Position numbers and translations under genes: made by a program. Below are positions 29,401-43,428 of a DNA stretch of 58,251 bases, in pieces. The stretch's first letter is position 1, and every line of letters begins with the position of its first letter. Under the pieces are notes generated by a model that had not been told where the DNA came from, searched no databases, and was given only the letters and a program-made list of their open reading frames with translations. Source of the stretch: an alpha proteobacterium SCGC AAA015-N04 (lineage in GTDB: Bacteria > Pseudomonadota > Alphaproteobacteria > Puniceispirillales > Marisalimonadaceae); NCBI GenBank assembly GCA_000383115.1, contig KB910594.1, positions 1-58,251 on the forward strand. Direction: 5' to 3'.

Positions 29401-29490
29401 GGATGGGTGACTGAGCGGTTGAAAGTACCGGTCTTGAAAACCGGCGAAGGTGAAAGCCTTCCGTGGGTTCGAATCCCACCCCATCCGCCA
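29401..29490 (+). tRNA. tRNA-Ser (UGA anticodon)
   Basis: A complete class II tRNA. The acceptor stem is GGATGGG pairing with CCCATCC, the discriminator base is G and CCA is encoded at 29488-29490. The anticodon loop CTTGAAA reads UGA. A variable arm follows, then the T-arm GTGGGTTCGAATCCCAC. The last 14 bases, plus TA, are repeated at 39479-39494, marking this gene as the integration site of the neighbouring island. Confidence 0.97.
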
Positions 29491-29492
29491 TA
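29477..29492 (+). repeat. Left attachment-site repeat (tRNA-Ser 3' end)
   Basis: CACCCCATCCGCCATA, the 3' end of tRNA-Ser including its CCA, occurs again in the same orientation at 39479-39494. Direct copies of a tRNA 3' end are the standard footprint of tyrosine-recombinase integration. Confidence 0.85.
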
Positions 29493-29548
29493 AAAATTTC
29501 TTTAAGATATTGATTTATATATATTTATTTACATATTATTTCCTATTT

Positions 29549-29566
29549 GGGACTAATTCCGGGACT
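29549..29566 (+). repeat. Paired GGGACT repeat near left island end
   Basis: Two GGGACT hexamers (29549-29554 and 29561-29566) lie 12 bases apart, 57 bases inside the island. G-rich hexamer pairs stand out in this AT-rich spacer and could be arm-type recombinase binding sites. This is suggestive only. Confidence 0.3.
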
Positions 29567-29692
29567 CTTAACAAATAAAAAATCAATAATTTTGATTAAA
29601 ATTTTATGTTCAAATATCCTAGATAAATAATTTGAATATTTATCTTTAATTTTTTCCCTATTTATATTTTCAAAATTTTTGAAAATCTAATC

Positions 29693-30607
29693 TTAATCAA
29701 TAGATTTTGTAATTCTTGGAGGATCAATTTCAGCAATCTCACAAGCATAATCCAATAACGCACTTATGTCTTTTTTAGCATATTTTCCCGATCTTGCTTG
29801 ACTATAAACAGCTTGCGCTGATGAACCAACAGGCAAACCAACTCTGAAATTATTAGCAGTCTCTATTGCTAGTCCCATGTCTTTATGAGCAAGATCAATT
29901 GTAAATCCTGGTTCAATATCATTTTTTAGCACTTTTGATAGAAAATTCATTTGAAATTGTCCATTATAAGCAGTGGTTCCCTTATTTATTTCTTTAAAAG
30001 TGTTTATATCTAAACCAACTTTTTGAGCAAGTGTAAGAGCTTCAGCTGTTATTTGAGCAATACTACATATTTGAAAATTATTTACAACTTTTGCTCTTAT
30101 TCCTGACCCAACTTTGCCACATCTTATAATAGTAGTACCCATTGCATTTAACAATGGTTCAATCTTTTTAAATGCATTATCATTGTCACATCCTACCATG
30201 AAAAGAGAATCTCCAGAAATAGCATGGCTTACTATTCGTCCAACTGGAGCGTCAATGAAATCTATATTTTTTTCTTTGCACATTTTATTTAATTCGTCTG
30301 TAAAGATAGGTGCAATTGTACTCATATCTAATATAATCGAACCAGGCTTTATGTATGACAAAACACCACTAGGTTCAGTTACTACAGATTTAACGTTTTC
30401 TGTAGATGGCAACATTGTTACAACAATATTAGCATTTTCAACTGTATCTCTAATATTATTTCCAGGAACAGCTCCTAACTGGATGTGTGGTAACATTTTT
30501 TCTTTTTCTATGTCGTAGACAGATAAATTAGTTCCTTTTTTTATAATATTTATAGCCATTGGCCCACCCATAGCACCAAGACCAATAAATGCTACTTTTT
30601 CACCCAT
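29693..30607 (-). CDS. NAD(P)-dependent oxidoreductase, 3-hydroxyisobutyrate dehydrogenase family
   Basis: A 304-residue beta-hydroxyacid dehydrogenase. GLGAMGGPMA at residues 9-18 binds the cofactor. DAPVGRIVSHAISGDSLFMVG near residue 117 is the substrate block. GSGIRAKVVNNFQ near residue 167 contains the catalytic Lys. An AAGGAG ribosome site precedes the start. It is the island gene nearest the tRNA, 93 bases after the SDR gene on the same strand. Related enzymes reduce short semialdehydes such as tartronate or sulfolactaldehyde; the substrate here is not assigned. Confidence 0.88.
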   Translation of the reverse strand: MGEKVAFIGLGAMGGPMAINIIKKGTNLSVYDIEKEKMLPHIQLGAVPGNNIRDTVENANIVVTMLPSTENVKSVVTEPSGVLSYIKPGSIILDMSTIAPIFTDELNKMCKEKNIDFIDAPVGRIVSHAISGDSLFMVGCDNDNAFKKIEPLLNAMGTTIIRCGKVGSGIRAKVVNNFQICSIAQITAEALTLAQKVGLDINTFKEINKGTTAYNGQFQMNFLSKVLKNDIEPGFTIDLAHKDMGLAIETANNFRVGLPVGSSAQAVYSQARSGKYAKKDISALLDYACEIAEIDPPRITKSID

Positions 30608-30700
30608 GGTAATCTCCTTATTATTTAAAATTGAGTAAATTTTAATTTAAATAAGCATGATTTGTAAGCTAAAATATTTTTTTTTAAATTGAAGTATTAC

Positions 30701-31477
30701 TTAAAGCCTGTTTAGAGATAATCCCCCATCAATTGGTATAACGGCCCCAGTAGCGTATGCCATTTTTCCTGTTACTAAAGGGAGTACAACAGAACCTATA
30801 TCTGATGGTTGTCCCCATCTACCAGCAGGAACAATTCCTTCATTTATCTTTTTATCATATTTTTCTTTTACATTAGAAGTCATCGGAGTATCTATAATAC
30901 CTGGGCGCAAGTCAAACACGCCTATGCCTTCATGGCTCAATCTAGCACAAAATAATTTAACCATCATCGAAGCCCCTGCTTTTGAAATACAATATTCTGC
31001 ACGTTCTTTGGATAACATCTCAGCACTAACGGAAGTTATAAAAATCATTGATCTGTAAAATTTGATTTTTTGCCTTAGAATTCTTCTTGCAGTTTCTTGA
31101 GCTAAAAAAAATGTACCTTTTAAATTAATATCCATAACAAAATCATATGATACTTCATTAATCTGAAGCATATCACCTCGAACTAATGGGGAAACACCAG
31201 CATTAGAAATTAGCGAATGGATTGACCCTTGATTAGTTTCTATTTGATCTAAAAGATTAGAAAGATTAGAAATATCACGTAAATCGTGTTGATAGTAATG
31301 AGCAAGAGGACCAAGTTTGTTTAATGCAAATTGAACAGATTTATCTTTAACTGCCGTTTCTGAAATTATTGCTATTCTAAAGTTAGCCTGTATTAACTCT
31401 TTAGCAATTCCAAATCCTATACCAGTATGCCCGCCTGTAATAAGCGCTAATGGTTTAATTTCCCTATTCTCATTCAT
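30701..31477 (-). CDS. SDR family oxidoreductase
   Basis: A 258-residue short-chain dehydrogenase. TGGHTGIGFGIAKEL near residues 14-28 is the cofactor motif, SNAG is near 90-93 and YCISK near 159-163 gives the catalytic Tyr and Lys. GAVIPIDGGL closes the family fold. The Asp/His pattern after beta-2 does not settle NAD versus NADP. Its start overlaps the enoyl-CoA hydratase stop by 4 bases, so translation is coupled. It probably oxidises a hydroxyacyl intermediate in the island pathway. Confidence 0.88.
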   Translation of the reverse strand: MNENREIKPLALITGGHTGIGFGIAKELIQANFRIAIISETAVKDKSVQFALNKLGPLAHYYQHDLRDISNLSNLLDQIETNQGSIHSLISNAGVSPLVRGDMLQINEVSYDFVMDINLKGTFFLAQETARRILRQKIKFYRSMIFITSVSAEMLSKERAEYCISKAGASMMVKLFCARLSHEGIGVFDLRPGIIDTPMTSNVKEKYDKKINEGIVPAGRWGQPSDIGSVVLPLVTGKMAYATGAVIPIDGGLSLNRL

Positions 31478-32241
31478 TTCCCTGAAAAGTCCGGTTTACG
31501 TTTTTCTCGAAAAGACAACACACCCTCTGCTTTATCTTTAGTAGAAGATATCATACCACCACCCAGAGCTTCTATCATAGCCTCAGTATCTTCATTGTGT
31601 GCTACATTTAGCATGTATTTTGTAACTTCATTAGCACGGGGTGATTTGTTAAGAATTTGTTCTGCCATTTCAAAAGCAGTTGCATATGGATCATCGGAAA
31701 TCATGTTAATAAAACCGATTTCATAAACACGTTTTGCAGTAACGCGACTACCGAACAAAGTCATTTCTTTCAAAATTGCAGGTGGAATGTGCCTTGCCAA
31801 TCGTTGGGTACCTGACCACCCAGGTACTATACCAATACTAGTTTCAGGCATTCCAAAAGTTGCTCTGGGTGACGATACACGTAAATCACATGCTGTTATT
31901 AATTCTAAGCCACCTCCAATTGCATGCCCCTTAACAACTGCAATAGTGGGTTGAACTAAACGTGCGAGTCGGTTAAATACCCTATGTCCGTGACGTATCC
32001 AGTCTCTTGAAAAATCAAAAGGAGCAAGGTCACCCCATGCGGATATATCAGCTCCAGCGCAAAAAACGTGATCCCCTTCTGCCGTCAACAATACAACACG
32101 AACATCTGGATTTTTTTCAAGTGTATTACAATGTGACTCAAGTGCCTCAAGCATTGAAACTGTTAAACAATTAAGTTTATCCACGTTGTCAAGGCGCAAC
32201 TCTGCAATTTCATTATTAATATTTAAATGAAGAGCACTCAA
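31474..32241 (-). CDS. Enoyl-CoA hydratase/isomerase family protein
   Basis: A 255-residue crotonase. The oxyanion-hole blocks are HVFCAGADISAWGDL near residues 58-72 and VKGHAIGGGLELITACDLRVSS near residues 103-124. The active-site region FGMPETSIGIVPGWSGTQRL near residue 131 carries the Glu typical of hydratases. It overlaps its neighbours by four bases on each side, forming a translationally coupled trio with the CoA-transferase and SDR. Base composition is visibly richer in G+C than the window's backbone. Confidence 0.92.
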   Translation of the reverse strand: MSALHLNINNEIAELRLDNVDKLNCLTVSMLEALESHCNTLEKNPDVRVVLLTAEGDHVFCAGADISAWGDLAPFDFSRDWIRHGHRVFNRLARLVQPTIAVVKGHAIGGGLELITACDLRVSSPRATFGMPETSIGIVPGWSGTQRLARHIPPAILKEMTLFGSRVTAKRVYEIGFINMISDDPYATAFEMAEQILNKSPRANEVTKYMLNVAHNEDTEAMIEALGGGMISSTKDKAEGVLSFREKRKPDFSGK

Positions 32242-33812
32242 AGTTTTAACCCCATTAATTTAGATGATAAAATAGACTTAGAAATCATTGTAGCGTTATC
32301 GGCAATCTGCACTCGACCTTCTGACACGTCTATGATATCTCTTTGGGGATCAATGCCAGGCATAATCTCTGTCGCCACAAGGCCGCTATCTTTAAGCTTT
32401 ATCACACATCTTTCAGTAATATAAATAACTTCTTGCCTCATTTCACGAGCCCTTTGCCCAGAGAATGTAACATGTTCTACTTTATCTACCATTTTAGTAA
32501 ATTTACCGGGCGTTGTAATTATTAATTCGTCGTCTTTCAAATTAAATTTTGCTCCAGCCTCAAAATACCCAGAGAACACAATCTTTTTTGCATGTGAAGT
32601 AATATCTACAAAACCTCCACAACCCGCTGTTAAGTATGGCTTTTTATCAAGTTTTGATACGTTAACGTTACCTTCACGATCTACTTCCAAAAAGGACAAA
32701 AATGCAATATCAAAACCACCACCTTGAAAATACATAAATTGATTTGGAGATGGGAGAATAGAGTGTGCATTAGCAGAACAACCAAAAGCAAATCCTTTCA
32801 ATGGCACACCCCCTACCGCTCCTTGTTCAATGGCCCAAGTAATCGATTGCTGGTAACCTTCTTCTAATAGTATTCTTGGAACATTTGCAGAAATTCCAAA
32901 ACCTAGAACGGCAGATTGCCCTTCTCTAAGTTCTAAACAGGCGCGCCGTGCTATTACTTTTTCAATTCCATGATCTACCAAATCAAAACTTGACCATGGT
33001 TGCAACACGTCCCCAGATATAGCTGGATCATAAACCGTATCAGTTGTCTGTTTCTGATCAGGATCAATTACAACCATATCAACTAAGTTACATGGAATAT
33101 GAACATTTTGCGGACGAAATGACCCATTTGCTGTTACTCGCTTAACCTGAGCAATTACTAAACCACCATGATTGCGGACAGCAATAGCAAGTTCAAGCGC
33201 ACCTAAATAGGCTCCTTCATGCTCAAAGGTAATATTACCATTTTCATCCGATGTAGTTCCACGCACAATTGCAACGTTAGGTACAATGTTAGGGAAATGC
33301 AGCCAGGTTTCACCTTCAAATTCTTGACGATGTACAATTGGATTTTTTGACGCACTGTCGTTCATGGCGCAACCTTCACGTATAGGATCGACAAAGGTAT
33401 TTATTCCAACTTTTGTAAAAACTCCGGGTTTGCGTGCGGCTACGTCTCGGTGCATATCAAACATTATACCGGATGGAATATTATAGGCTTCAACACGGTC
33501 CTCAACGATCATCTTCCAGATTTTTGGCATCTGTTTCGAAGAAGGGCCACTAGGATATGATCCGGCAAAAATTCTTGAAATTAGTCCTTCCTTGGCGATA
33601 TGATCTATACCTTTAATTCCGTACATATCACCTGCAGCAATAGGAAGTAGCATAGTCAGATTCTTAGGATGAGCTTCCGCATCAAACCGCTTGCCTAATG
33701 CAAGCAATACTTTGTCTGGACAACCAAGACCTGATGATGATGAGACTGTCACTGTGGCATTATCTGAAATTTGAGCAACAGCCTCGTAAGATGTTGTTAT
33801 TTTGGAAACCAA
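32238..33812 (-). CDS. Class I CoA-transferase, fused alpha/beta subunits
   Basis: A 524-residue acyl-CoA:carboxylate CoA-transferase with both halves in one chain. The N-terminal half has SSSSGLGCPDKVLLALGKRF. The C-terminal half has the catalytic Glu in the AIEQGAVGGVP segment near residue 330, the equivalent of the ENGxxGG motif, and GCGGFVDIT as an oxyanion loop. The start is TTG with an AAAGGA ribosome site. It activates a carboxylic acid to its CoA ester, feeding the hydratase and SDR. The G+C is high for the window: 25 of 60 bases at 33301-33360 by hand count. Confidence 0.9.
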   Translation of the reverse strand: MVSKITTSYEAVAQISDNATVTVSSSSGLGCPDKVLLALGKRFDAEAHPKNLTMLLPIAAGDMYGIKGIDHIAKEGLISRIFAGSYPSGPSSKQMPKIWKMIVEDRVEAYNIPSGIMFDMHRDVAARKPGVFTKVGINTFVDPIREGCAMNDSASKNPIVHRQEFEGETWLHFPNIVPNVAIVRGTTSDENGNITFEHEGAYLGALELAIAVRNHGGLVIAQVKRVTANGSFRPQNVHIPCNLVDMVVIDPDQKQTTDTVYDPAISGDVLQPWSSFDLVDHGIEKVIARRACLELREGQSAVLGFGISANVPRILLEEGYQQSITWAIEQGAVGGVPLKGFAFGCSANAHSILPSPNQFMYFQGGGFDIAFLSFLEVDREGNVNVSKLDKKPYLTAGCGGFVDITSHAKKIVFSGYFEAGAKFNLKDDELIITTPGKFTKMVDKVEHVTFSGQRAREMRQEVIYITERCVIKLKDSGLVATEIMPGIDPQRDIIDVSEGRVQIADNATMISKSILSSKLMGLKL

Positions 33813-33856
33813 GAAATATGTCCTTTCATATGTTCTTAAGATGCTCTGTTTTTTGA

Positions 33857-34567
33857 TTAGGGTTTATCTAAACTAAAATCTAACCAAGTTTGATCTGCAT
33901 ATTCATCCCGCCTACCATTACCTTTTGGAAATACTTGTCGAGATGCCTCTAAAATGACATCAGGTGTCTGAGTAAATGGTTTGGCTATTTCGATCAAAGC
34001 TAAATAGCGTTGTTCACCTGGTCCACCACTGTAGATTTTTCGTTCAGATGTCATGATTTTAGAAATATTTTCGTCAACTCGATACATGCGTGCCCTTAAT
34101 ACATTTGTAATTTGACATAAAGAGGTAAGCCACTCATGCGAATATAAGGGCATTAGCGTTTGATCTAGACCGTCTACAAGATTAAAACGAAGAGCAGCTA
34201 AATAAGGAGCTGGAAATATATCTGGTTTTCCACAAGAACCAATTAATTCATAAATATTTCTAACTGGATCACGAAACCAGGTAAGGGCCTCTTTGGTTCT
34301 AGGTGTTGGGTTATTAAGTGCATCCAAATAAGGCTTCGATCCAAGTACAGAAGATTTTTTGGTCTCATAGAATTGCAAAAATCTTTTATGTTCTCCAAAA
34401 ACTGCATATCGACGGCCTGTTTGAAAGCCGGGTATAGAAACACGCTCGATCATATGTTCACAATTGTGCCACTCGACATAACTTGATAAATGCCGCTTTT
34501 CAAAAGTTGCCCAAAAAGCCATTAATCCATGATTTGAAGAGCTTGAATTTTTAACAATTGTTTTCAA
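33857..34567 (-). CDS. EthD/dimeric alpha-beta-barrel-like protein
   Basis: A 236-residue protein that resembles the EthD-type ferredoxin fold family. SSYVEWHNCEHMIERVSIPGFQTGRRYAVFG near residues 28-58 has the W-N-x-EH pattern of that family. A second, degenerate copy seems to follow (EWLTSLCQITNVLRARMYRV near residue 145). No enzyme activity is established for this type, although some members act in monooxygenase or decarboxylase pathways. It lies 45 bases from the CoA-transferase and 45 from the TauD gene, so it is part of the island operon. Confidence 0.6.
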   Translation of the reverse strand: MKTIVKNSSSSNHGLMAFWATFEKRHLSSYVEWHNCEHMIERVSIPGFQTGRRYAVFGEHKRFLQFYETKKSSVLGSKPYLDALNNPTPRTKEALTWFRDPVRNIYELIGSCGKPDIFPAPYLAALRFNLVDGLDQTLMPLYSHEWLTSLCQITNVLRARMYRVDENISKIMTSERKIYSGGPGEQRYLALIEIAKPFTQTPDVILEASRQVFPKGNGRRDEYADQTWLDFSLDKP

Positions 34568-34612
34568 TAAAATCTTTCTTTCTTACTTTGCAAAATTAAT
34601 TATATATAAACC

Positions 34613-35503
34613 TTACTGTTGAATTAACATTTTTGTACCTGCTAGTGTAGTTCTTCGAACATCTCTAATTTCTTTTTGATCGTTAAAATACCTACCTCTA
34701 TGCATAACTTGAGTGTTGTCCCATATAACAATATCATTTTCTTCCCATTTATGTGCGTATACATAATCTGGATTAGTACAAATTTCCATTAAGTCATTTA
34801 TAAATAAAATTGAATCAGCAAGTTCCCAATCTTTTATTAAACCTATGTGTGCAGAAAGATATAGTGATTTCCTATTTGTTATAGAATTTTTTCTAACTAA
34901 TGGTTGAAGAACTGGCTTAAACTTTTCTAATTCCTTTTTAGTAAGAACGTCTTTCATAATAAATCCTAATTTGCTTCTAGAATATTGAAGTGAGTGTTCA
35001 CAAATCAGGTTTTCTACTTTGTTCTTCATTTCTTTAGAAAGCGCTTCATAGCCACAACGCATATCACAAAACTCTGTTTCCCCTCCCTTTGTAGGAACCT
35101 TTCTTCCTGACAAGATTGAAAGAGTAACAGGTTTTTTTTTAAAAGAAGCGTCAGTATGCCATAGCCTATTTCCTAAACCAAAAATTCTATTTTGATTATC
35201 TTTGGCCAAGGGCTTATTATTTTTATCTAGATTTGACACATCATTCATTTGTGATGATAAGCGTCTATCTTTCATTTCTGTAAGTTCAGTATTTGTACCA
35301 GCAGGCTCTATTGTTCCAAAGTTTTCTGAAAATTTTATTTGTTCCTCGTCATTAATTTTTTGATTCTTTAATATTATAACTGCATATTCATTAATTAACT
35401 TAGTTATCTCTGATACATAATCTTTAGATATGTTTTGTCTTATATCTATTCCAAAAACTTCTGCAACAAAACCAATTTTAGATTTTAATACTTTAAAATT
35501 CAT
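34613..35503 (-). CDS. TauD/TfdA family alpha-ketoglutarate-dependent dioxygenase
   Basis: A 296-residue Fe(II)/2-oxoglutarate dioxygenase. The iron triad is His and Asp of LWHTDASFKK near residues 114-123 and His in TQVMHRGRYF near residue 265. The Arg that binds 2-oxoglutarate is in RDVRRTTLAG. The family hydroxylates carbons next to sulfonate, ether, amine or carboxylate groups, often releasing sulfite or an aldehyde. Placed beside a TRAP transporter, it is the likely first enzyme on the imported compound. Its AT-rich codons look more like the backbone than the CoA-transferase group. Confidence 0.92.
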   Translation of the reverse strand: MNFKVLKSKIGFVAEVFGIDIRQNISKDYVSEITKLINEYAVIILKNQKINDEEQIKFSENFGTIEPAGTNTELTEMKDRRLSSQMNDVSNLDKNNKPLAKDNQNRIFGLGNRLWHTDASFKKKPVTLSILSGRKVPTKGGETEFCDMRCGYEALSKEMKNKVENLICEHSLQYSRSKLGFIMKDVLTKKELEKFKPVLQPLVRKNSITNRKSLYLSAHIGLIKDWELADSILFINDLMEICTNPDYVYAHKWEENDIVIWDNTQVMHRGRYFNDQKEIRDVRRTTLAGTKMLIQQ

Positions 35504-35563
35504 TATAAAAATTCCTCATAATAAATAATAATAATTTTTTAAAATTTTATCTCCTATGTATTA

Positions 35564-36865
35564 TTATATAAATTTTGCCATCAACAATTTTGGCAATGCT
35601 AAAATAATTTCAGGAAAGAAAACAACTATCAAGAGAACTAAAAACATTGGACATAAAACAATACCTACATCTCGTAAAGCCTTTATTACTTCAATATCTC
35701 CTAATCTACATGCAATTAAAAGACATAGCCCATAGGGTGGTGTAACTAAACCAAAAGCAAGAGATATTACTCCTATAATAGCAAAATGAATAGGATGCAT
35801 GTTAGAGACTTCAGCTAAGGGCCATAAAACAGTTCCAAGTATAATTATAGCTGGAATGGCATCAATAAACATACCTATTAATAAAAAAGAGCCTGCAACT
35901 ATCAAGCCTGTACTTACTGGTCCAATTCCATATGGCTCTAAAAAAGAAACTACTGCCAAAGGGATCTTAAAATAAGCTAGCAGCCATCCGAAGGCAGATG
36001 CAGTGCCAATACAAAATAATGACATTGCAGCAAACTTAGCAGATTTATACAGAATTGAGGGTAAATTATCGAATCCTATTGTCTTATAGAAGAAACCACC
36101 AAGTACAATTGAATATAAAACAGCAATTACAGAAGCTTCGGTTGGTGTAAACAAACCACCAACAATTCCGCCAACTATAATCAAAGGAGTCATGATAGGC
36201 GGTACAGCATGAAAAATGGCTACAAAAAACTCTTTTAATGACGATCTTGTATAAATTGGATAATTATAAATTTTTGCGAATATATAGACAGCTATCATCT
36301 GTGATCCAGCAATTAAAATTCCAGGAACAACACCAGCTAAGAATAAGCCACCTATTGATACAGACATCAATCCTCCCCAAACTACCATAAGAATACTAGG
36401 TGGAATTACTACGCCCATTACTGAGGAACAAGCTGTAATAGCAACGGAAAAACTACTTGAATAGCCTTGTTTTTTCATCTGAGGTATAAGTAAAGACCCA
36501 ATACCAGCTGCATCTGCTGTGGATGATCCTGAAATCCCAGCAAATAACATACTTACAACTACATTCACGTGACCTAATCCTCCTGGCAAATGACCAACCA
36601 TTGCTCTAGATAAACGAATTAAACGATCAGTTATACCTGCAGCATTCATAATGTTTGCCGCTAAAAGAAAAAACGGTACAGCAAGTAATACAAAGGAATT
36701 GTACGATTTAAACATTTCATTCATGAGTAAAAAAGGTGTCAGTCTGTCCTCAATCAAAAATATAGGGACACAAGCTAAACCTAATGCGATAGCTACTGGA
36801 ATACGTAAAATGACTAGAACAATGAATAAGGGGAACATAATCCCAGCAACTTCAATAGGAGTCAT
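35564..36865 (-). CDS. dctM: TRAP transporter large permease (DctM)
   Basis: A 433-residue polytopic permease with the TRAP-T large-subunit pattern. Blocks include PVAIALGLACVPIF, GGLGHVNVVVSMLFAGISGSSTADAAGIG, MGVVIPPSILMVVWGGL, the half-repeat GGLFTPTEASVIAV and FGLVTPPYGLCLLIACRLGDI. It overlaps the dctQ stop by four bases and forms one system with the dctP at 37443. The imported substrate is unknown but should be the substrate of the island enzymes. Confidence 0.94.
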   Translation of the reverse strand: MTPIEVAGIMFPLFIVLVILRIPVAIALGLACVPIFLIEDRLTPFLLMNEMFKSYNSFVLLAVPFFLLAANIMNAAGITDRLIRLSRAMVGHLPGGLGHVNVVVSMLFAGISGSSTADAAGIGSLLIPQMKKQGYSSSFSVAITACSSVMGVVIPPSILMVVWGGLMSVSIGGLFLAGVVPGILIAGSQMIAVYIFAKIYNYPIYTRSSLKEFFVAIFHAVPPIMTPLIIVGGIVGGLFTPTEASVIAVLYSIVLGGFFYKTIGFDNLPSILYKSAKFAAMSLFCIGTASAFGWLLAYFKIPLAVVSFLEPYGIGPVSTGLIVAGSFLLIGMFIDAIPAIIILGTVLWPLAEVSNMHPIHFAIIGVISLAFGLVTPPYGLCLLIACRLGDIEVIKALRDVGIVLCPMFLVLLIVVFFPEIILALPKLLMAKFI

Positions 36866-37344
36866 GAAGAGACACTCCTATATAATTTAATGTGATCAAA
36901 AACTCGTTCTGATAGAAAAATTATCCATGTAATTCCTGTCAAAGGCCATGCTACATAGATAAAGACCATTGGCATTTCAGCCATTTCAGAGGTTTGCAAT
37001 AGTCCGAATTGAACTAAAGGCCAACCCCATATAACGAAAATAATAGCCATTAAAAATGTCATGGAGTCTACAAACATTAAAGAAATAGCTTTCCCTTTGT
37101 TTGTTTTTTGAGTTGGAAGTAAATCAACTGTAAAGTGTTCATCAGTCCTCATAGCTATCATAGCGCCGACAAGAATAATCCAAATAAAGCAAAATCGAGA
37201 TAATTCTTCAGTCCAGATATAGCGTGGTATAAAATCAACGTACCGAGCGAAAATTTGCATTGTAACAGGGATGATGATTAGCCCCATAAGAACTGTAAGC
37301 ATAATTTTTAAAAATGAATAATAAATGTCTATAAACTTTTTCAT
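36862..37344 (-). CDS. dctQ: TRAP transporter small permease (DctQ)
   Basis: A 160-residue four-helix membrane protein. IFARYVDFIPRYIWTEELSRFCFIWIILVGAMIAMRTDEHFTVDLL near residues 30-75 is the conserved TRAP small-subunit region. It lies between dctP and dctM, separated from dctP by a strong hairpin that may reduce read-through. Confidence 0.92.
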   Translation of the reverse strand: MKKFIDIYYSFLKIMLTVLMGLIIIPVTMQIFARYVDFIPRYIWTEELSRFCFIWIILVGAMIAMRTDEHFTVDLLPTQKTNKGKAISLMFVDSMTFLMAIIFVIWGWPLVQFGLLQTSEMAEMPMVFIYVAWPLTGITWIIFLSERVFDHIKLYRSVSS

Positions 37345-37367
37345 TTTACTCGTTTAATGTTCAAAAT

Positions 37368-37411
37368 TAAAAATAAAAGATTTCAATGACATCAATGTAA
37401 TTGAAATCTTT
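37368..37411 (-). terminator. Intra-operon terminator/attenuator between dctP and dctQ
   Basis: A perfect 12-bp stem (AAAGATTTCAAT at 37376-37387 pairing with 37400-37411) with a 12-base loop is followed on the minus strand by a T-rich tract. It lies 32 bases past the dctP stop and would lower transcription into dctQM, giving the excess of binding protein usual for such transporters. Confidence 0.75.
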
Positions 37412-37442
37412 AAATTTTATGTAACTGTTGTACCTCTACTTA

Positions 37443-38450
37443 TTACTTTACTGCCTGAATTGCATCATAAAGTGAGCTTTGACCCAAATCCTTGAAATAT
37501 GCTTTAAGCACGGGCTTCGCAGCTGTAATTAACTTGTCACGTTCAGTGAAGTTGATTGTTTTCAACTTACCTTGCGCTTCCATTTCAGCCATGATGCCAG
37601 ACCCTTCTGTAAGTTCGGTTACTCTTCCATAAGTACCTGCATCTTTACCAGCTTGAATAATTGCTTCTTGTAAATCTTTTGGAAGTTTACGGAGTGTCTT
37701 ACCGCTAAATGCCAAAGGTCGAACAGTAATAGAGTGAGCAGTTAAAGAAATATTAGGACCAACTTCGTAAAATTTCATCTGTCTGATACCAGCAGCTTCA
37801 TTTTCTGCTGCATCAATAACACCTGTTTGAATAGCATTATAAACTTCAGAATAAGCAATAACGTTAGGTGTCATTCCAAAGGCATTAAATAGTTTGGTTT
37901 GAATTGGAGCACCCATAACACGAATTGGTACATTTTTAATTTCAGCCATATTTGATACAGCTTTATTAACAATCAAATGACGTACACCGCCTCCGCCATA
38001 TCCAAGCAATTTTATGTCAGCGCGTTTATAAACATCATCAACGATTGGTTTCAAAACGTCACTTGATAACACTTTGCTCCAATGACCCGCGTCGCGGTAA
38101 AGCATTGGTGGATCAAGCAAAGTAGCTAATTTAGAAAAAGTTGACATATGTGAGGGTGATGCAACTGCATAATCAACTGATATTCCTTGATTCATGTAAG
38201 CAACATAGTCTTTTTCAAGACCAAGTTCACTATTCAGATGCATAATAAACTCAATTTCGTGTGAACCACTATAATTCAGTTTTACCAACTGTTCAAATTT
38301 ACGCATGAGCCTTGTGAATGCATGCTTTTCGTCAAATTGGCTTGCTCCATGAAATGTAAACTTATCAGCATGCGATACTGATACGATTGCAAAGCTTGTA
38401 AAAGCGGCAATTGCAATAGGCCTTAATAATTTTGAAAAAATTTTAATCAT
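37443..38450 (-). CDS. dctP: TRAP transporter solute-binding protein (DctP)
   Basis: A 335-residue periplasmic binding protein. MIKIFSKLLRPIAIAAFTSFAIVSVSHA is a Sec signal peptide, and the mature protein starts near DKFTFHGAS. VPIRVMGAPIQTKLFNAFGMTPNVIAYSEVYNAIQTGVIDAAENE near residues 160-205 is the ligand-binding block with the conserved Arg. An AGGAGG ribosome site lies upstream. It is the first gene of the island operon, divergent from the GntR regulator, with a FadR-type operator in the spacer. Confidence 0.93.
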   Translation of the reverse strand: MIKIFSKLLRPIAIAAFTSFAIVSVSHADKFTFHGASQFDEKHAFTRLMRKFEQLVKLNYSGSHEIEFIMHLNSELGLEKDYVAYMNQGISVDYAVASPSHMSTFSKLATLLDPPMLYRDAGHWSKVLSSDVLKPIVDDVYKRADIKLLGYGGGGVRHLIVNKAVSNMAEIKNVPIRVMGAPIQTKLFNAFGMTPNVIAYSEVYNAIQTGVIDAAENEAAGIRQMKFYEVGPNISLTAHSITVRPLAFSGKTLRKLPKDLQEAIIQAGKDAGTYGRVTELTEGSGIMAEMEAQGKLKTINFTERDKLITAAKPVLKAYFKDLGQSSLYDAIQAVK

Positions 38451-38485
38451 TTCATTTTTCCTCCTATTTATTATTTAATAAAAAT

Positions 38486-38508
38486 ATTGGTTCAGTGGTA
38501 GGACCAAT
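38486..38508. promoter_or_regulatory. Predicted FadR/GntR-type operator
   Basis: TGGTAGGACCA at 38496-38506 fits the TNGTNNNACNA half-site rule of the FadR branch of GntR regulators. It sits inside a wider inverted repeat, ATTGGT (38486-38491) and ACCAAT (38503-38508). A looser AACC-N8-GGTT repeat follows at 38525-38540. The site lies between divergent dctP and the GntR gene, where the regulator would control both. Confidence 0.65.
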
Positions 38509-38583
38509 GGCTTCAATATCATGAAACCGTTAATGTGGTTGATTGTCAAGTTCAAATCAATTAGATATTGTAATTAATTAGAA

Positions 38584-39324
38584 ATGAAAATTATAATTAT
38601 GATTGAAGACCAGATTATACAATTTAAAAGTTTTGAACAAAAAAGAATTTACCAAAAGGTAGCTGAACATTTAGTCGAACTTATCAATACCAATGAATTG
38701 AGTGTGGGACAAAGGCTACCACCAGAACGTGAGCTTGCTAAAAAAATACAAGTAAGTAGAAACGTTGTTCGCGAGGCTTTCTTAGCGCTAGAAATTGCCG
38801 GTTATATTGAAATTCGTGTTGGGGTTGGAACGTTCGTGGTTTCAAAAACCCCCCAAATATCAAATATGGGGGGGATACATAATTTAGATATTGGTGCTGG
38901 CCCAATTGATATATTAGCAGCACGAAAAACAGTAGAGGGAGAAATTGCTGCTATCTCTGCGACAACTGCAACACATGATGATATTAACAGTCTAGACCAG
39001 GCATTGGTAGAAATTCTTAACGATACAAAAGTTGAAGATACAGTAAATGACTGGCCTCGTATATTTCATACACGTCTTGCCAGTTCTACACAAAACCCCA
39101 TATATATTTCTATTGTAGATCTTCTTTGGGAACAAACACGAGGTCCATTATTTGAAAATTTCAGAAAACATACAAAAATGCGTGAAAATCAAAATGTTTC
39201 ACAAGATCACCGAAGTAAACTCATCAATTGTCTAAAACAAAAAGATGCTAGCGGAGCAAGGCTAGCTATGCACCAACACATAGATGCGGTTGGCGACATT
39301 CTTACGCATCTCGATATGACTTAA
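38584..39324 (+). CDS. GntR/FadR family transcriptional regulator
   Basis: A 246-residue regulator. The winged helix-turn-helix lies at about residues 18-85 (LSVGQRLPPERELAKKIQVSRNVVREAFLALEIAGYIEIRVGVGTFV). An all-helical FCD effector domain follows (roughly 105-235), with Asp and His residues that usually hold a metal and a carboxylate ligand. It is divergent from the TRAP and catabolic operon and probably represses it until the substrate or an intermediate binds. It is the last island gene before the right repeat. Confidence 0.93.
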   Translation: MKIIIMIEDQIIQFKSFEQKRIYQKVAEHLVELINTNELSVGQRLPPERELAKKIQVSRNVVREAFLALEIAGYIEIRVGVGTFVVSKTPQISNMGGIHNLDIGAGPIDILAARKTVEGEIAAISATTATHDDINSLDQALVEILNDTKVEDTVNDWPRIFHTRLASSTQNPIYISIVDLLWEQTRGPLFENFRKHTKMRENQNVSQDHRSKLINCLKQKDASGARLAMHQHIDAVGDILTHLDMT

Positions 39325-39478
39325 CTTTTCTCCAATCAATCATTTGAATAATTGTATAAATAAAACTTAATATCAATCACTCTAAAACATACGCAAACTA
39401 AAAGATGTTAACTCATATTTTAGTTAATGATATCATTTTTTTTTCAGCAACTTGCAGATTTATATATTATTAAATAGA

Positions 39479-39494
39479 CACCCCATCCGCCATA
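39479..39494 (+). repeat. Right attachment-site repeat (tRNA-Ser 3' fragment)
   Basis: This is an isolated copy of CACCCCATCCGCCATA with no tRNA body around it, identical and in the same orientation as the tRNA-Ser 3' end at 29477-29492. It lies in the 277-base spacer 39325-39601, where I otherwise see only AT-rich sequence without a gene. It marks the distal end of the island. Confidence 0.85.
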
Positions 39495-39601
39495 TTCCTA
39501 AAATTTTTTATAATTAATAAGTAAAAAATTGTAATAAGCATAATAAAAACGTCTGCTTCTACAATTAATTTTTTTAAAATGTAGGTGTAGTTAGATAAAT
39601 T

Positions 39602-40594
39602 TTACATACCCCATCTAATAGCAGGAGTGTGGACTGCTGAGTCCCAATGTTTTACTAATTCTGGGTCGAGCTTAGTTAAGGTGATAGAAGCACCTTGCAT
39701 TTCTAGAGATGTACAATAATTTCCAACTAATGATCGTGCAATCTTGATTTTTTTATCATCAAGTATTTTTTTTGCATTATCATATAAAAGATATAACTCT
39801 GAGAGAGGGGTGCCACCCATTCCATTTACAAACAATAAAATTTCATCTTTATTTTCTAGTTTCAAATCCTCTAAAATTGCATTTGATAGCTCATTGGTGA
39901 TTTCTTGCGCAGATTTTATTTTATCTCTTCTCCTTCCTGGTTCCCCGTGAATGCCTACTCCAAATTCCATTTCATCAACACCAAGTTTAAAAGTTGGCTT
40001 GCCAGCGGCAGGAACAATACAACTTGAGAAAGCTACCCCCATAGAACCTGAATTTTTATTAACTTTTTCACCTAATTGTTTACACTCTTCGAGACTACCA
40101 CCGTGCTCAGCAAGAGAGCCAACAATTTTTTCAACAATAACAGTAGCTGCTACACCTCTTCGACCTGTTGTAAAGGATGAATTTTCTACTGCCACATCAT
40201 CGTTAGTCAATATTGTTTCACTTGGTCCAGTCATCATTTCTGCAGCCATCTGAAAATTCATTATATCACCAGAATAATTTTTAACGATAAATAAAACTCC
40301 TGCACCACTATTAACTTTTTCTATCGCTGCAATCATTTGATCAGGTGATGGAGATGAAAAAACAAATCCAGGGCAAGCAGCATCTAACATTCCATACCCA
40401 ACAAACCCAACATGCATTGGTTCATGGCCACTTCCTCCACCAGTTATTAAAGCTACTTTTCCTTCTTTGGTAGTTTTAGATCTAATAATAAAATTTGGAT
40501 CATAATGACAAGTCACGATGTCTTTGTGTGCAGCGCCAAATCCCTGTAAGCTCTCTTTTAGAAATTCATCTGCTGAATTCATAAATTTTTTCAT
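39602..40594 (-). CDS. dhaK: Dihydroxyacetone kinase subunit DhaK
   Basis: A 330-residue substrate-binding subunit. ALITGGGSGHEPMHVGFVGYGMLDAACPG near residues 48-76 forms the dihydroxyacetone pocket. The His that binds the substrate as a hemiaminal is in GVGIHGEPG near residue 215. FVNGMGGTPLSELYLLYDN near residue 255 is a further conserved block. It forms an operon with dhaL 10 bases upstream and is the first backbone gene after the island's right repeat. Confidence 0.94.
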   Translation of the reverse strand: MKKFMNSADEFLKESLQGFGAAHKDIVTCHYDPNFIIRSKTTKEGKVALITGGGSGHEPMHVGFVGYGMLDAACPGFVFSSPSPDQMIAAIEKVNSGAGVLFIVKNYSGDIMNFQMAAEMMTGPSETILTNDDVAVENSSFTTGRRGVAATVIVEKIVGSLAEHGGSLEECKQLGEKVNKNSGSMGVAFSSCIVPAAGKPTFKLGVDEMEFGVGIHGEPGRRRDKIKSAQEITNELSNAILEDLKLENKDEILLFVNGMGGTPLSELYLLYDNAKKILDDKKIKIARSLVGNYCTSLEMQGASITLTKLDPELVKHWDSAVHTPAIRWGM

Positions 40595-40603
40595 AACTTT
40601 CTC

Positions 40604-41233
40604 CTAACAATTTAATATTGACTCGCATACTGTTTTAATCATTAGTTGTGATGAACGAGCACCTGGATCTATGTGACCTTTTGAGCGTTCACCTAAAAAA
40701 GAAGCCCTACCCTTAGTAGCCAACAAGTTCTTAGTTGATAACATGCCTTTTTCTGCTGTTTCAATAGTTTCTATCATTAATTCTTTGAGATTTTTATCGT
40801 TTTTGATTCCCTGCTTTAGGCAATTAGCTACAGGTATTAATACATCCATCATTGTTTTTTCTCCTACATCAGCTTTACCTCTTTCCTTTACAGCTTCAAC
40901 TCCATTAGTGAACATATCTATAGCTTTTTTATAACTAACACCCTTATCTATATTGCTACTTTTTGCCATTGTCATAAATAACGTACCAAATAATGCACCA
41001 GAAGATCCACCAATGCCTGATAAAACTTTCATTGCTATTTGGTTCAATGCTTTAGACATTGATAAGTCTTTGATTATAGGCTCTAACTCAATTACGAGCT
41101 TTATTCCTCTTTGCATGTTAAAAATATGATCACCGTCACCAATTTCTTGATCTAACTTTTCAATTTCAGGTGCATTACTATCTATGACAACTTGGATTTC
41201 TTTTGCTCTTTTGATCAAAAAATCAACACTCAC
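40604..41233 (-). CDS. dhaL: Dihydroxyacetone kinase subunit DhaL
   Basis: An ADP/ATP-binding subunit of about 209 residues. EIGDGDHIFNMQRGI near residue 34 carries the Mg-binding Asp residues, GGSSGALFGTLFMTMA near residue 77 is the phosphate loop and GRASFLGERSKGHIDPGARSS closes the site. The start GTG at 41233 follows GGAG by seven bases. The open frame begins at 41251, but that ATG is upstream of the ribosome site. No dhaM or PTS gene is nearby, so phosphoryl transfer probably comes from ATP. Confidence 0.9.
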   Translation of the reverse strand: MSVDFLIKRAKEIQVVIDSNAPEIEKLDQEIGDGDHIFNMQRGIKLVIELEPIIKDLSMSKALNQIAMKVLSGIGGSSGALFGTLFMTMAKSSNIDKGVSYKKAIDMFTNGVEAVKERGKADVGEKTMMDVLIPVANCLKQGIKNDKNLKELMIETIETAEKGMLSTKNLLATKGRASFLGERSKGHIDPGARSSQLMIKTVCESILNC

Positions 41234-41338
41234 TTTAGTCTCCGTGAACATTCAAAAATAATCATTATTAAATGTTACGAAAAATTAAATAAGCTTTCAA
41301 TGTTAATACTCGATTATGGGCAAAATTGTGAGATAAGA

Positions 41339-42250
41339 TTAATCTCCCCCTCTTTTATTTTTCAATAAATTTTTACAATACTTTCCAATGCTAATTATTG
41401 CATCTTCTGCATCTTTTAAAATATGAGCATTACTGTGCCATCCATGAAACATATCTTCCCAAATCTCAAGTTTTGCATTTACATTTGCTTTTTTTGCTTT
41501 CTCATAAAAACGAATACTATCGTCTAACATTGTCTCAGCAGAACCAACTTGAATTAATATATCTGGTAAACCTGATAATTCACCAATAAGAGGAGATGCC
41601 AAATGAGACATGTTGTTCAAGTTAGGGAAATATAATTTTGCAAATCTATCAAGGTATTTTTTACTTATTATTGGATCAATTTTTTCATTTGTTAGCATTG
41701 TTTTTCCAGTTTGACAAAGATCAGTCCAAGGGCTTAGGGCTATAGCTCCTAATGGCTGAGAAAAATTATTTTCTTTAATTTTTAATAATAATGCTAAACA
41801 TAACCCACCACCTGCAGATTGTCCGCTAACAATTATGTGTTCAGGGCTTATTCCTTCATTAATAAGCCATACATAAGCAGAATATGTATCATCTATAGCT
41901 GCTGGGAAAGGATGCTCTGGAGCTAATCTATAGTTAATTGATAAACATTTAAGTTTTGCTTCTGCAGAAATTCTTGCCACTGTTGCTCTTGAACCAGCTA
42001 CTGATCCCCTGTAATAACCACCACCATGCATGAACATTAATATCCTATCTTCATTTACCTCCCCACATGTGATCCATTCTGCATTAATATTTCCAGCAAC
42101 TACACTTTTGTAATTTATATTTTCAGGAAGTGGAATTGAAGATCCAGCAGTTTCTATTTCCTTTCGAAGTTGGTTAATAGTTTTATTTTCTGTGTATGGG
42201 TTTTTTCTTTTTGCATCTATTATATTTTTAAGTATTATTTTGTTATCCAT
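41339..42250 (-). CDS. Alpha/beta hydrolase, hormone-sensitive-lipase-type esterase
   Basis: A 303-residue esterase of the HSL family. The oxyanion motif is FMHGGGYYRGS near residues 72-82. The nucleophile is Ser in SGQSAGGG near residue 146. The acid is probably Asp in GSAETMLDDS near 245, and the base is His in MFHGWHSNAH near 275. The family cleaves short acyl esters. It is transcribed with the neighbouring PLP enzyme and dhaKL, but a shared pathway is not obvious. Confidence 0.88.
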   Translation of the reverse strand: MDNKIILKNIIDAKRKNPYTENKTINQLRKEIETAGSSIPLPENINYKSVVAGNINAEWITCGEVNEDRILMFMHGGGYYRGSVAGSRATVARISAEAKLKCLSINYRLAPEHPFPAAIDDTYSAYVWLINEGISPEHIIVSGQSAGGGLCLALLLKIKENNFSQPLGAIALSPWTDLCQTGKTMLTNEKIDPIISKKYLDRFAKLYFPNLNNMSHLASPLIGELSGLPDILIQVGSAETMLDDSIRFYEKAKKANVNAKLEIWEDMFHGWHSNAHILKDAEDAIISIGKYCKNLLKNKRGGD

Positions 42251-42291
42251 TTTGGAATTACCCCATAATAATTTATTATTTAATTTGTAAA

Positions 42292-43428
42292 TTAAAAACT
42301 AAACCCTCTTGCAGAAACAGGCCATAAATCGATCACTTTTGTGTCTTTAACAACCACATACCAATCATGTAAATTACAAGTAGGGTCGCAATGCCCAGGA
42401 ATTAAACGAATTTTATCATTAATTTTAAGAATATTATCAGGGTCAGCTATTATTCCATGCTCATCAGAGCATTTTATATATTCTAACTTTGAATTTATTG
42501 TTTTTGGCAAGCCACTATCAACTGCTATTGACTTCAGTCCTGCATCTACTACAGCATGTTTTTGTAATGCTTTTGACATTACCCCAGTAAGAATGAATAA
42601 GGAATTTTCAAAATTATTAGAATTATTTAATTTTCTGTCATGTTTTAAAGATGAATAATGAGCATCCATAAAGGCGTATGAACCAACTTGTATTTCATCA
42701 TATATTTCTTCATTTACTTCTAAATCAAAACAACCGGTTCCTACACCAGTGATAAATGGTGAATGTTTTATGAAATTAGCTTTTAATTCTTTAATTTTAT
42801 TGCAAGTATTTTTGACTTCTATTTGTCTTATTTTATGATCTTCAATATGCTGTATAGAACCATTATAAGCTTGAAAGCCAATAAAATTTAAATTGGCCAT
42901 CTTTTTAATCATTTTAATCAGTTCATTTATTTCGTTAAATGATTTTGTACCACATCTATTAGCGCCACAATCGTACTCAATATAAATATCAATTATTGAA
43001 TTATTTCTTTTTGCTGCTTTTTGGATGTTAATTACATTTTCTTGATTATCTACACAACAACCTATCTTTAATTCTTTAGATACTATTTTAGCTAGTCTTT
43101 CTAATTTAAATGCATCAGTTATTTGATTAGTTATTAGAATATCTTTTATACCAGCTCTAACAAATATCTCTGCTTCACTAAGTTTTTGGCAACAAATACC
43201 ATGTGCTCCACCATTATCAATTTGGTAATTAGCGACATCGACTGATTTATGCATTTTAGCATGTGGTCTCAACTTTACATTATTATTGAGAACAAATTTT
43301 TTCATTTTTGATATATTATTCTCAAAAATTTTATAATCAATAATCAATGAAGGAGTTTGAATTTCATCAACATCCATACCTATTCTAGCAGGAATATTAA
43401 ATCCTACCTCAAATGACCCTAAATTCAT
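42292..43428 (-). CDS. D-threonine aldolase/DSD1 family PLP enzyme
   Basis: A 378-residue fold-type III PLP enzyme of the alanine racemase N-terminal family. IQTPSLIIDYKIFENNI near residue 23 and the PLP Lys in RPHAKMHKS near residues 54-62 are clear. The C-terminal metal-binding GHCDPTCNLHDWYVVV provides His and Cys ligands. Members include D-threonine aldolase, D-serine dehydratase and beta-hydroxyaspartate aldolase (BhcC). None of the other beta-hydroxyaspartate cycle genes is present here, so the exact activity is open. Confidence 0.87.
   Translation of the reverse strand: MNLGSFEVGFNIPARIGMDVDEIQTPSLIIDYKIFENNISKMKKFVLNNNVKLRPHAKMHKSVDVANYQIDNGGAHGICCQKLSEAEIFVRAGIKDILITNQITDAFKLERLAKIVSKELKIGCCVDNQENVINIQKAAKRNNSIIDIYIEYDCGANRCGTKSFNEINELIKMIKKMANLNFIGFQAYNGSIQHIEDHKIRQIEVKNTCNKIKELKANFIKHSPFITGVGTGCFDLEVNEEIYDEIQVGSYAFMDAHYSSLKHDRKLNNSNNFENSLFILTGVMSKALQKHAVVDAGLKSIAVDSGLPKTINSKLEYIKCSDEHGIIADPDNILKINDKIRLIPGHCDPTCNLHDWYVVVKDTKVIDLWPVSARGFSF

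Follow-up and report, generated by a model that had tools for sequence, protein, structure and literature searches.

The DNA analyzed here, referred to as the window, is a stretch of 58,251 nucleotides (positions 1 to 58,251 of contig KB910594.1, GenBank assembly GCA_000383115.1) from the alphaproteobacterium SCGC AAA015-N04. Our subject is a block of about 10 kb, here called the island, that begins at the 3' end of a tRNA-Ser(UGA) gene and closes with a second copy of that end. The source genome is a 74-contig draft assembly of 1.71 Mb, estimated to be 66.8% complete. The GC content of the window, calculated per kb, is 22-41%, which fits the low-GC SAR116 subclade, with a GC content of about 30% according to PMC8547437; the source lineage probably belongs to this subclade of the Puniceispirillales (SAR116). 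The tRNA gene, the two repeat copies and the ten genes between them are arranged as follows.

29401..29490, forward strand: tRNA-Ser(UGA), intact, putative integration target (ARAGORN, anticodon TGA)
29477..29492, forward strand: core repeat copy 1, the 3' end of the tRNA plus two bases (exact-match search)
29693..30607, reverse strand: 3-hydroxyisobutyrate-dehydrogenase-family gene, near-paralogue of a genus-wide gene (family and DNA matches)
30701..31477, reverse strand: short-chain dehydrogenase (family match)
31474..32241, reverse strand: enoyl-CoA hydratase/isomerase family (family match)
32238..33812, reverse strand: CoA-transferase (family match), not found in any of the 57 family relatives at E 1e-40
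33857..34567, reverse strand: 236-aa protein without a family match, with distant homologues elsewhere in the family
34613..35503, reverse strand: TauD-family dioxygenase (family match), 85-87% amino acid identity in relatives G044 and G041
35564..36865, reverse strand: TRAP transporter DctM (family match)
36862..37344, reverse strand: TRAP transporter DctQ (family match)
37443..38450, reverse strand: TRAP transporter DctP, solute-binding protein (family match)
38584..39324, forward strand: GntR/FCD regulator (family match)
39479..39494, forward strand: core repeat copy 2, distal end of the island (exact-match search)

A preliminary description of this DNA had reported a 16-base repeat of the tRNA 3' end around about 10.0 kb, and the repeat-bracketed block is real. 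The repeat, CACCCCATCCGCCATA, consists of the last 14 bases of tRNA-Ser(UGA) plus TA and occurs in exact copies at 29477-29492 and 39479-39494, with a spacing of 10,002 bp. At up to three mismatches, the window holds one further site, which lies inside dctP at 37985 and has 2 mismatches; the mean over 100 dinucleotide-shuffled versions of the window was 0.06 matches. The 12-base core CCCCATCCGCCA has two sites in the incomplete source assembly, and both are these repeat copies. The ten genes between the repeats are as previously described, except for the 236-aa protein, for which neither Pfam nor NCBIfam gave a match at E 0.001 and which has distant homologues in 36 other genomes among 136.

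The core pattern was searched in 150 relatives (denoted by G numbers) and the source genome and was present in 64 of the 151 genomes, including 31 of 57 family relatives; all 31 loci of the latter were fetched and compared. The common gene order, with exceptions, was mltB, tRNA-Ser, variable genes, a D-serine-dehydratase-like gene serving as a marker, glyoxalase and mfd. The tRNA end was seen in 28 of the 31 fetched relatives, and the marker was reached in 20 of these 28, the stretches of G017, G019, G027, G030, G035, G042, G043 and G048 stopping short of it. Across the 20 relatives, the tRNA-to-marker distance ranged from 245 bp (G021) to 14,045 bp (G038), with no frame of at least 70 aa in the interval of G021 or G022 (254 bp). 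The relatives carry a fused TRAP transporter with flavin reductase, an amino-acid ABC transporter, a GNAT acetyltransferase, an MMPL transporter set, an epoxide hydrolase, an Nmad3 protein and other genes as cargo. The ten-gene set of the island was found in none of the 20 marker-reaching relatives, and in the fetched stretches similarity to its genes above 30% identity was limited to a TRAP permease distinct from that of the island (31-32%) and to a TauD protein (30%). Tandem repeat copies are present in other genomes as well, and tandem units including an integrase occur in G038 and G039. The compared loci show the tRNA-Ser(UGA) site to be a hotspot at which units stack in tandem and the cargo varies among relatives. 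This agrees with the tRNA-Ser-targeted cargo island proposed in the preliminary description, which had expected other cargo at the same site and would have given way to relatives that all carried the same ten genes with vertical phylogenies.

The site is used by at least two integrase architectures, each accompanied by its integrase in some relatives. Type A is a tyrosine recombinase of 409-421 aa lying directly after the tRNA in G020, G038, G042 and G043 (domains checked on the G020 copy); a 97% identical copy is present in G003, in a unit that runs off the contig before its tRNA end. Type B is a different integrase, found in G039, where the first unit carries it at the distal end. Full-length integrases were found in the tRNA-proximal unit of 5 of the 28 relatives (G020, G038, G042 and G043 with type A, G039 with type B). 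Both architectures have end sequences that can be sought in the window, where two features correspond to them.

29549..29566, forward strand: GGGACT pair, putative arm site of the type B integrase, 59 bp after the tRNA (motif placement, profile match and shuffle test)
39495..39537, forward strand: type A left-end segment, directly after the tRNA in relatives, which marks the pre-insertion junction (profile, BLAST and shuffles)

A type A left-end profile built from 12 relatives matched 39496-39537, right after the distal repeat, at E 2.7e-4 and had no match in 194 control loci (1.81 Mb), a scan that left out six loci overlapping the tRNA-Ser site or its elements. In BLAST, the 59 bp at 39479-39537 were 95% identical to the post-tRNA sequence of G031 and 88-92% identical to that of eight other genomes. 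When the segment beyond the distal 16-mer was compared with type A left ends, 11 of 12 comparisons beat all 500 mononucleotide shuffles, with G036 missing and G009 marginal. Because the distal copy precedes what in relatives comes after the tRNA itself, the island split an older junction, and the distal repeat carries the junction that formerly belonged to the tRNA. The preliminary description had named the absence of the 39479 repeat, or its lack of conservation at the junction, as a reason to abandon its proposal; the copy is exact and has conserved post-tRNA sequence behind it.

The island's left end, directly behind the tRNA, beat all 500 shuffles in three of three comparisons with type B. 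The scores of its comparisons with type A were reached by 102-476 of 500 shuffles, and those with a further kind of end, type C, by 37, 1 and 5 of 500. A type B left-end profile from two genomes matched 29496-29567 at E 0.0032, with no match in the control loci. In the window, G017 and G039, the tRNA is followed at a distance of 59-60 bp by the GGGACT pair; it is only half kept at a second left end in G039, which has a further pair 146 bp before its distal core, beside the integrase. In the family, the motif has six sites, four of them at tRNA-Ser cores. The left end of the island appears, from these matches, to descend from a type B element. Type C is a double CCACC repeat after the tRNA in G008, G035 and G027, observed first by eye and then aligned; it was not counted as a third integrase system, no integrase being linked to its ends.

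We consider it likely that site-specific recombination at the 3' end of tRNA-Ser(UGA) inserted 29493-39494 as an integrative unit carrying only cargo, because a repeat of the tRNA 3' end brackets it, the tRNA is intact and the distal copy precedes the post-tRNA sequence of relatives. Recombination would have placed the unit at the tRNA 3' end, leaving the tRNA intact, and would have displaced the older junction between tRNA and type A end to the distal repeat, ahead of the dhaK and dhaL genes (dhaKL). A chimera of assembly or amplification that joined unrelated pieces at the repeat seems very improbable: the source genome is a draft of many contigs and an odd inversion is seen at tRNA-Ser in G017, but recognizable att-type ends lie on both outer sides in the orientation that integration predicts, and tandem repeat copies recur in other genomes. 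The conserved flanking genes around variable cargo could also reflect homologous recombination through shared flanks (the mltB and marker-gene sides, or shared type A scars), swapping cargo with no integrase, and island replacement by recombination has been proposed for marine bacteria in PMC12421898. We regard this as unlikely, since such swapping alone explains neither the precise tRNA 3' repeat followed by the type A segment nor the type B-like end behind the tRNA, and integrases with matching end sequences occupy the same site.

The island itself lacks an integrase, as the preliminary description had stated: when the island and both of its ends were compared by blastx with 11 sequences or fragments of integrases taken from relatives, the best E was 0.62, and an integrase remnant inside the island was rejected on this basis. 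No recombinase or transfer genes were found among its genes. The preliminary description had also suggested looking in the rest of the genome for a tyrosine recombinase using the same tRNA; neither a type A integrase at E 1e-15 nor a type B integrase at E 1e-20 was found in the 66.8% complete source assembly. The same searches for relatives of the two types covered G001-G035 plus 22 order members. The integrase may have acted in trans or may have been lost later together with the right arm, and the two options seem about equally likely. Mobilization of the island in trans is possible but unproven. The other branch, in which a complete element lost its own integrase and right arm after insertion and is now a fixed remnant, has in our estimation somewhat less than an even chance. 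The left arm pair is kept with no recognizable right arm, and decay of this sort at the tRNA-Ser site is shown by two integrase fragments, one of 150 aa in G013 (tRNA-proximal unit) and one of 88 aa in G038 (second unit). However, blastx finds no remnant in the island, the genes extend to about 200 bp from both cores, and 22 of the 28 relatives have neither a full-length nor a fragmentary integrase in the fetched tRNA-proximal stretch (8 of 28 stop short of the marker).

Several observations weigh against insertion of a cargo-only unit with a type B-derived end. The 120 bp before the distal repeat are unlike four type A and one type B right ends, whose scores are reached by 158-464 of 500 shuffles; the right end was therefore rejected as an end of either type, and a complete att pair at the island lacks support. 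The type B link of the left end is based on three reference copies from two genomes, and one type C comparison was reached by as few as 1 of 500 shuffles. Reversed GGGACT, used as a control, has nine scattered sites in the family, compared with six for the motif; because the reversed control is equally common, only the placement of the pair is telling, and the motif alone was rejected as evidence. One third of the source genome is missing from the assembly, and 26 of the 57 family relatives, mostly incomplete drafts, lack the exact core pattern, so that the site comparison excludes them. No genome of the same species turned up with the site empty. A broader proposal can be offered tentatively: one low-GC SAR116 tRNA-Ser site might be shared by several competing integrase systems, with cargo-only units that keep the end of one system moving in trans; metabolic modules would then be put together from a pool common to the family, and could be stacked and exchanged although not every unit has an integrase of its own.

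Relatives of both integrases were observed at other places. G042 (C17, L057) has a second type A element in inverted orientation, about 9 kb from the tRNA and beyond mltB; this element has a core of its own, and its integrase is split. Type A integrase relatives of 37% identity adjoin another serine tRNA, tRNA-Ser(GCU), in G024 (C16, L283) and G009 (C10, L284). At E 1e-40, type B has matches in 4 of 58 family genomes, namely G039 itself and three with 33-37% identity. G017 (C26, L275) and G034 (C22, L276) carry the type B backbone of G039, with a 214-aa protein that is 82% and 70% identical, respectively, and two more genes in G034; the integrases of these elements are only 36% identical to that of G039, and no tRNA is predicted alongside. 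We read the three elements as one backbone with exchanged integrases. The viral_contigs set contained no close relatives of either integrase. Viral packaging was also considered and rejected: the type A right-end pattern had two matches in viral_contigs (53-56% GC, no gene like those of the fetched loci), which were read as chance.

The cargo was described as a single functional module, which is borne out by the kinds of gene present and not by their histories. As predicted from gene families, the TRAP transporter, dioxygenase, CoA-transferase, crotonase, dehydrogenases and GntR regulator would fit one task, the import and oxidation of an organic acid. However, the cargo is a mosaic rather than a module moved whole, because some genes match same-family DNA at 82-86% while the CoA-transferase has no such match. 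The TauD-TRAP genes are 82% identical in DNA to G044 and 83-86% to G041, both of which belong to another genus of the same family; no tRNA is predicted in either matching stretch. DNA matches to the 3-hydroxyisobutyrate-dehydrogenase-family gene occur in 34 of the 39 genus relatives, at 71-86% identity, the source genome itself has a second copy (85% identical), and a wholly foreign origin of the cargo was rejected in view of such matches within the family and genus. At E 1e-40, the CoA-transferase was found in none of the 57 family relatives and in 15 of 78 other order members, with more than 50% identity in only two of these. In genome_contigs, 247 stretches encode relatives of this enzyme; among the best 80 of the 247, the highest identity was 76% and a hydratase gene comes after the CoA-transferase in 75. 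Two annotated plasmids carry a CoA-transferase relative beside sugar-type ABC transporters and an oxidoreductase. G041 was also seen to have a complete three-gene TRAP set on one contig (L303) and, on a second (L304), TauD with a DctM stub, located close to homologues of the alpha/beta hydrolase and flavin reductase of the hotspot.

To the right of the island, the window continues with the genes in front of which the older junction now lies.

39602..41251, reverse strand: dhaK and dhaL, an older cargo unit that has a type A left end and no integrase (gene matches, left-end profile)
41302..41359, forward strand: weak candidate for the right arm of the dhaKL unit, of type A and decayed (profile E 0.0074)
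41339..43428, reverse strand: alpha/beta hydrolase, then the D-serine-dehydratase-like gene, the right-hand hotspot marker (gene matches)

The dhaKL pair is an older cargo unit of the same kind as the island, with what seem to be type A ends, and lies beyond the block delimited in the preliminary description. The arrangement anticipated there for relatives, with the dhaK side joined to the tRNA, was found in substance: in G007 and G015, the tRNA copy of the repeat is followed by one small gene and then by dhaK-dhaL. In G015, the pair ends at a decayed type A right end whose core is mutated. Clear type A right arms occupy the same place in G008 and G020 as 41302-41359 in the window. The control scan for type A right arms yielded three weak matches (E 0.0048, 0.045 and 0.054; two in integrase loci), so that the assignment of 41302-41359 is suggestive only. 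At least two cargo units that lack integrases are thus stacked in the window.

Cargo units arranged in tandem at tRNA or tmRNA genes, some of them lacking an integrase, are already known, and the SAR116 island is a well-resolved new case. The novelty expected in the preliminary description is thereby reduced, since tRNA cassette insertion in streamlined pelagic bacteria has been reported in PMC7771536 and PMC10872708. These sources describe fGI1 of Ca. Actinomarinales (PMC7771536) and fGI-2 of Methylophilaceae (PMC10872708) as additive flexible genomic islands with tRNA-fragment repeats, in which cassettes at tRNA genes are bounded by a direct repeat of the tRNA and vary between close relatives. 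At the SAR116 site, too, the cassettes differ between close relatives. Compared with fGI1 and fGI-2, this site has two end architectures resolved at a single tRNA, both of them accompanied by an integrase in some relatives, as well as a displaced older junction that can be read. In PMC3146451, ssrA islands of Dehalococcoides are tandem units bounded by repeats of an RNA gene 3' end, and 15 of them, without integration modules, were proposed to be cis-mobilizable elements (CIMEs); the target there is a tmRNA and the enzyme a serine recombinase, whereas the SAR116 site involves tRNA-Ser and tyrosine recombinases. Like the CIMEs named in that text, with recombination-site ends and adjoining other units, the island has neither a recombinase nor transfer genes. 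Its core repeats are present and its left end is type B-like, but its right end is unlike types A and B, and, unlike CIMEs as portrayed there, it has no recognizable right arm and no co-mobilizing integrase-bearing neighbor at the site in the source genome. The tRNA-bordered cargo with nutrient-related genes in a streamlined marine bacterium resembles tycheposons as described in PMC10872708; the island differs in lacking a tyrosine recombinase, which 5 of 28 relatives have at the same site. Within the collection of papers searched, a single search joining SAR116 with tycheposon returned none. What is new is a SAR116 case in which the insertion order, two end architectures and their integrases are readable at one tRNA. 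Such an ordered insertion record in an abundant, mostly uncultivated ocean lineage names candidate recombinases and end sequences and makes it testable how streamlined marine bacteria acquire nutrient-uptake cassettes without visible mobility genes.

Minor observations concern one relative and the source genome. On contig C17 of G017 (L040), the intact tRNA-Ser, which has a type B left end, points the other way with respect to mltB, and next to mltB lies a degenerate copy of the tRNA 5' half, also inverted and seen by eye; this arrangement represents either an inversion through the tRNA or an artifact of assembly or amplification. The source genome has four PF00589 matches: two proteins of about 325 aa, read as the Xer pair, one beside tRNA-Arg and one fragment beside tRNA-Leu. 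The tRNA-Arg(TCG) locus (C4:7432-10860, L100) carries a DUF6538 tyrosine recombinase in whose frame a stretch is repeated around an ambiguous base, which probably marks a seam in the assembly. The tRNA-Leu(CAA) locus (C2:71183-74344, L101) carries the C-terminal integrase fragment together with a 77-aa protein, which by eye equals one near tRNA-Ser in G043, G048 and G051, placing one cargo at two tRNAs.

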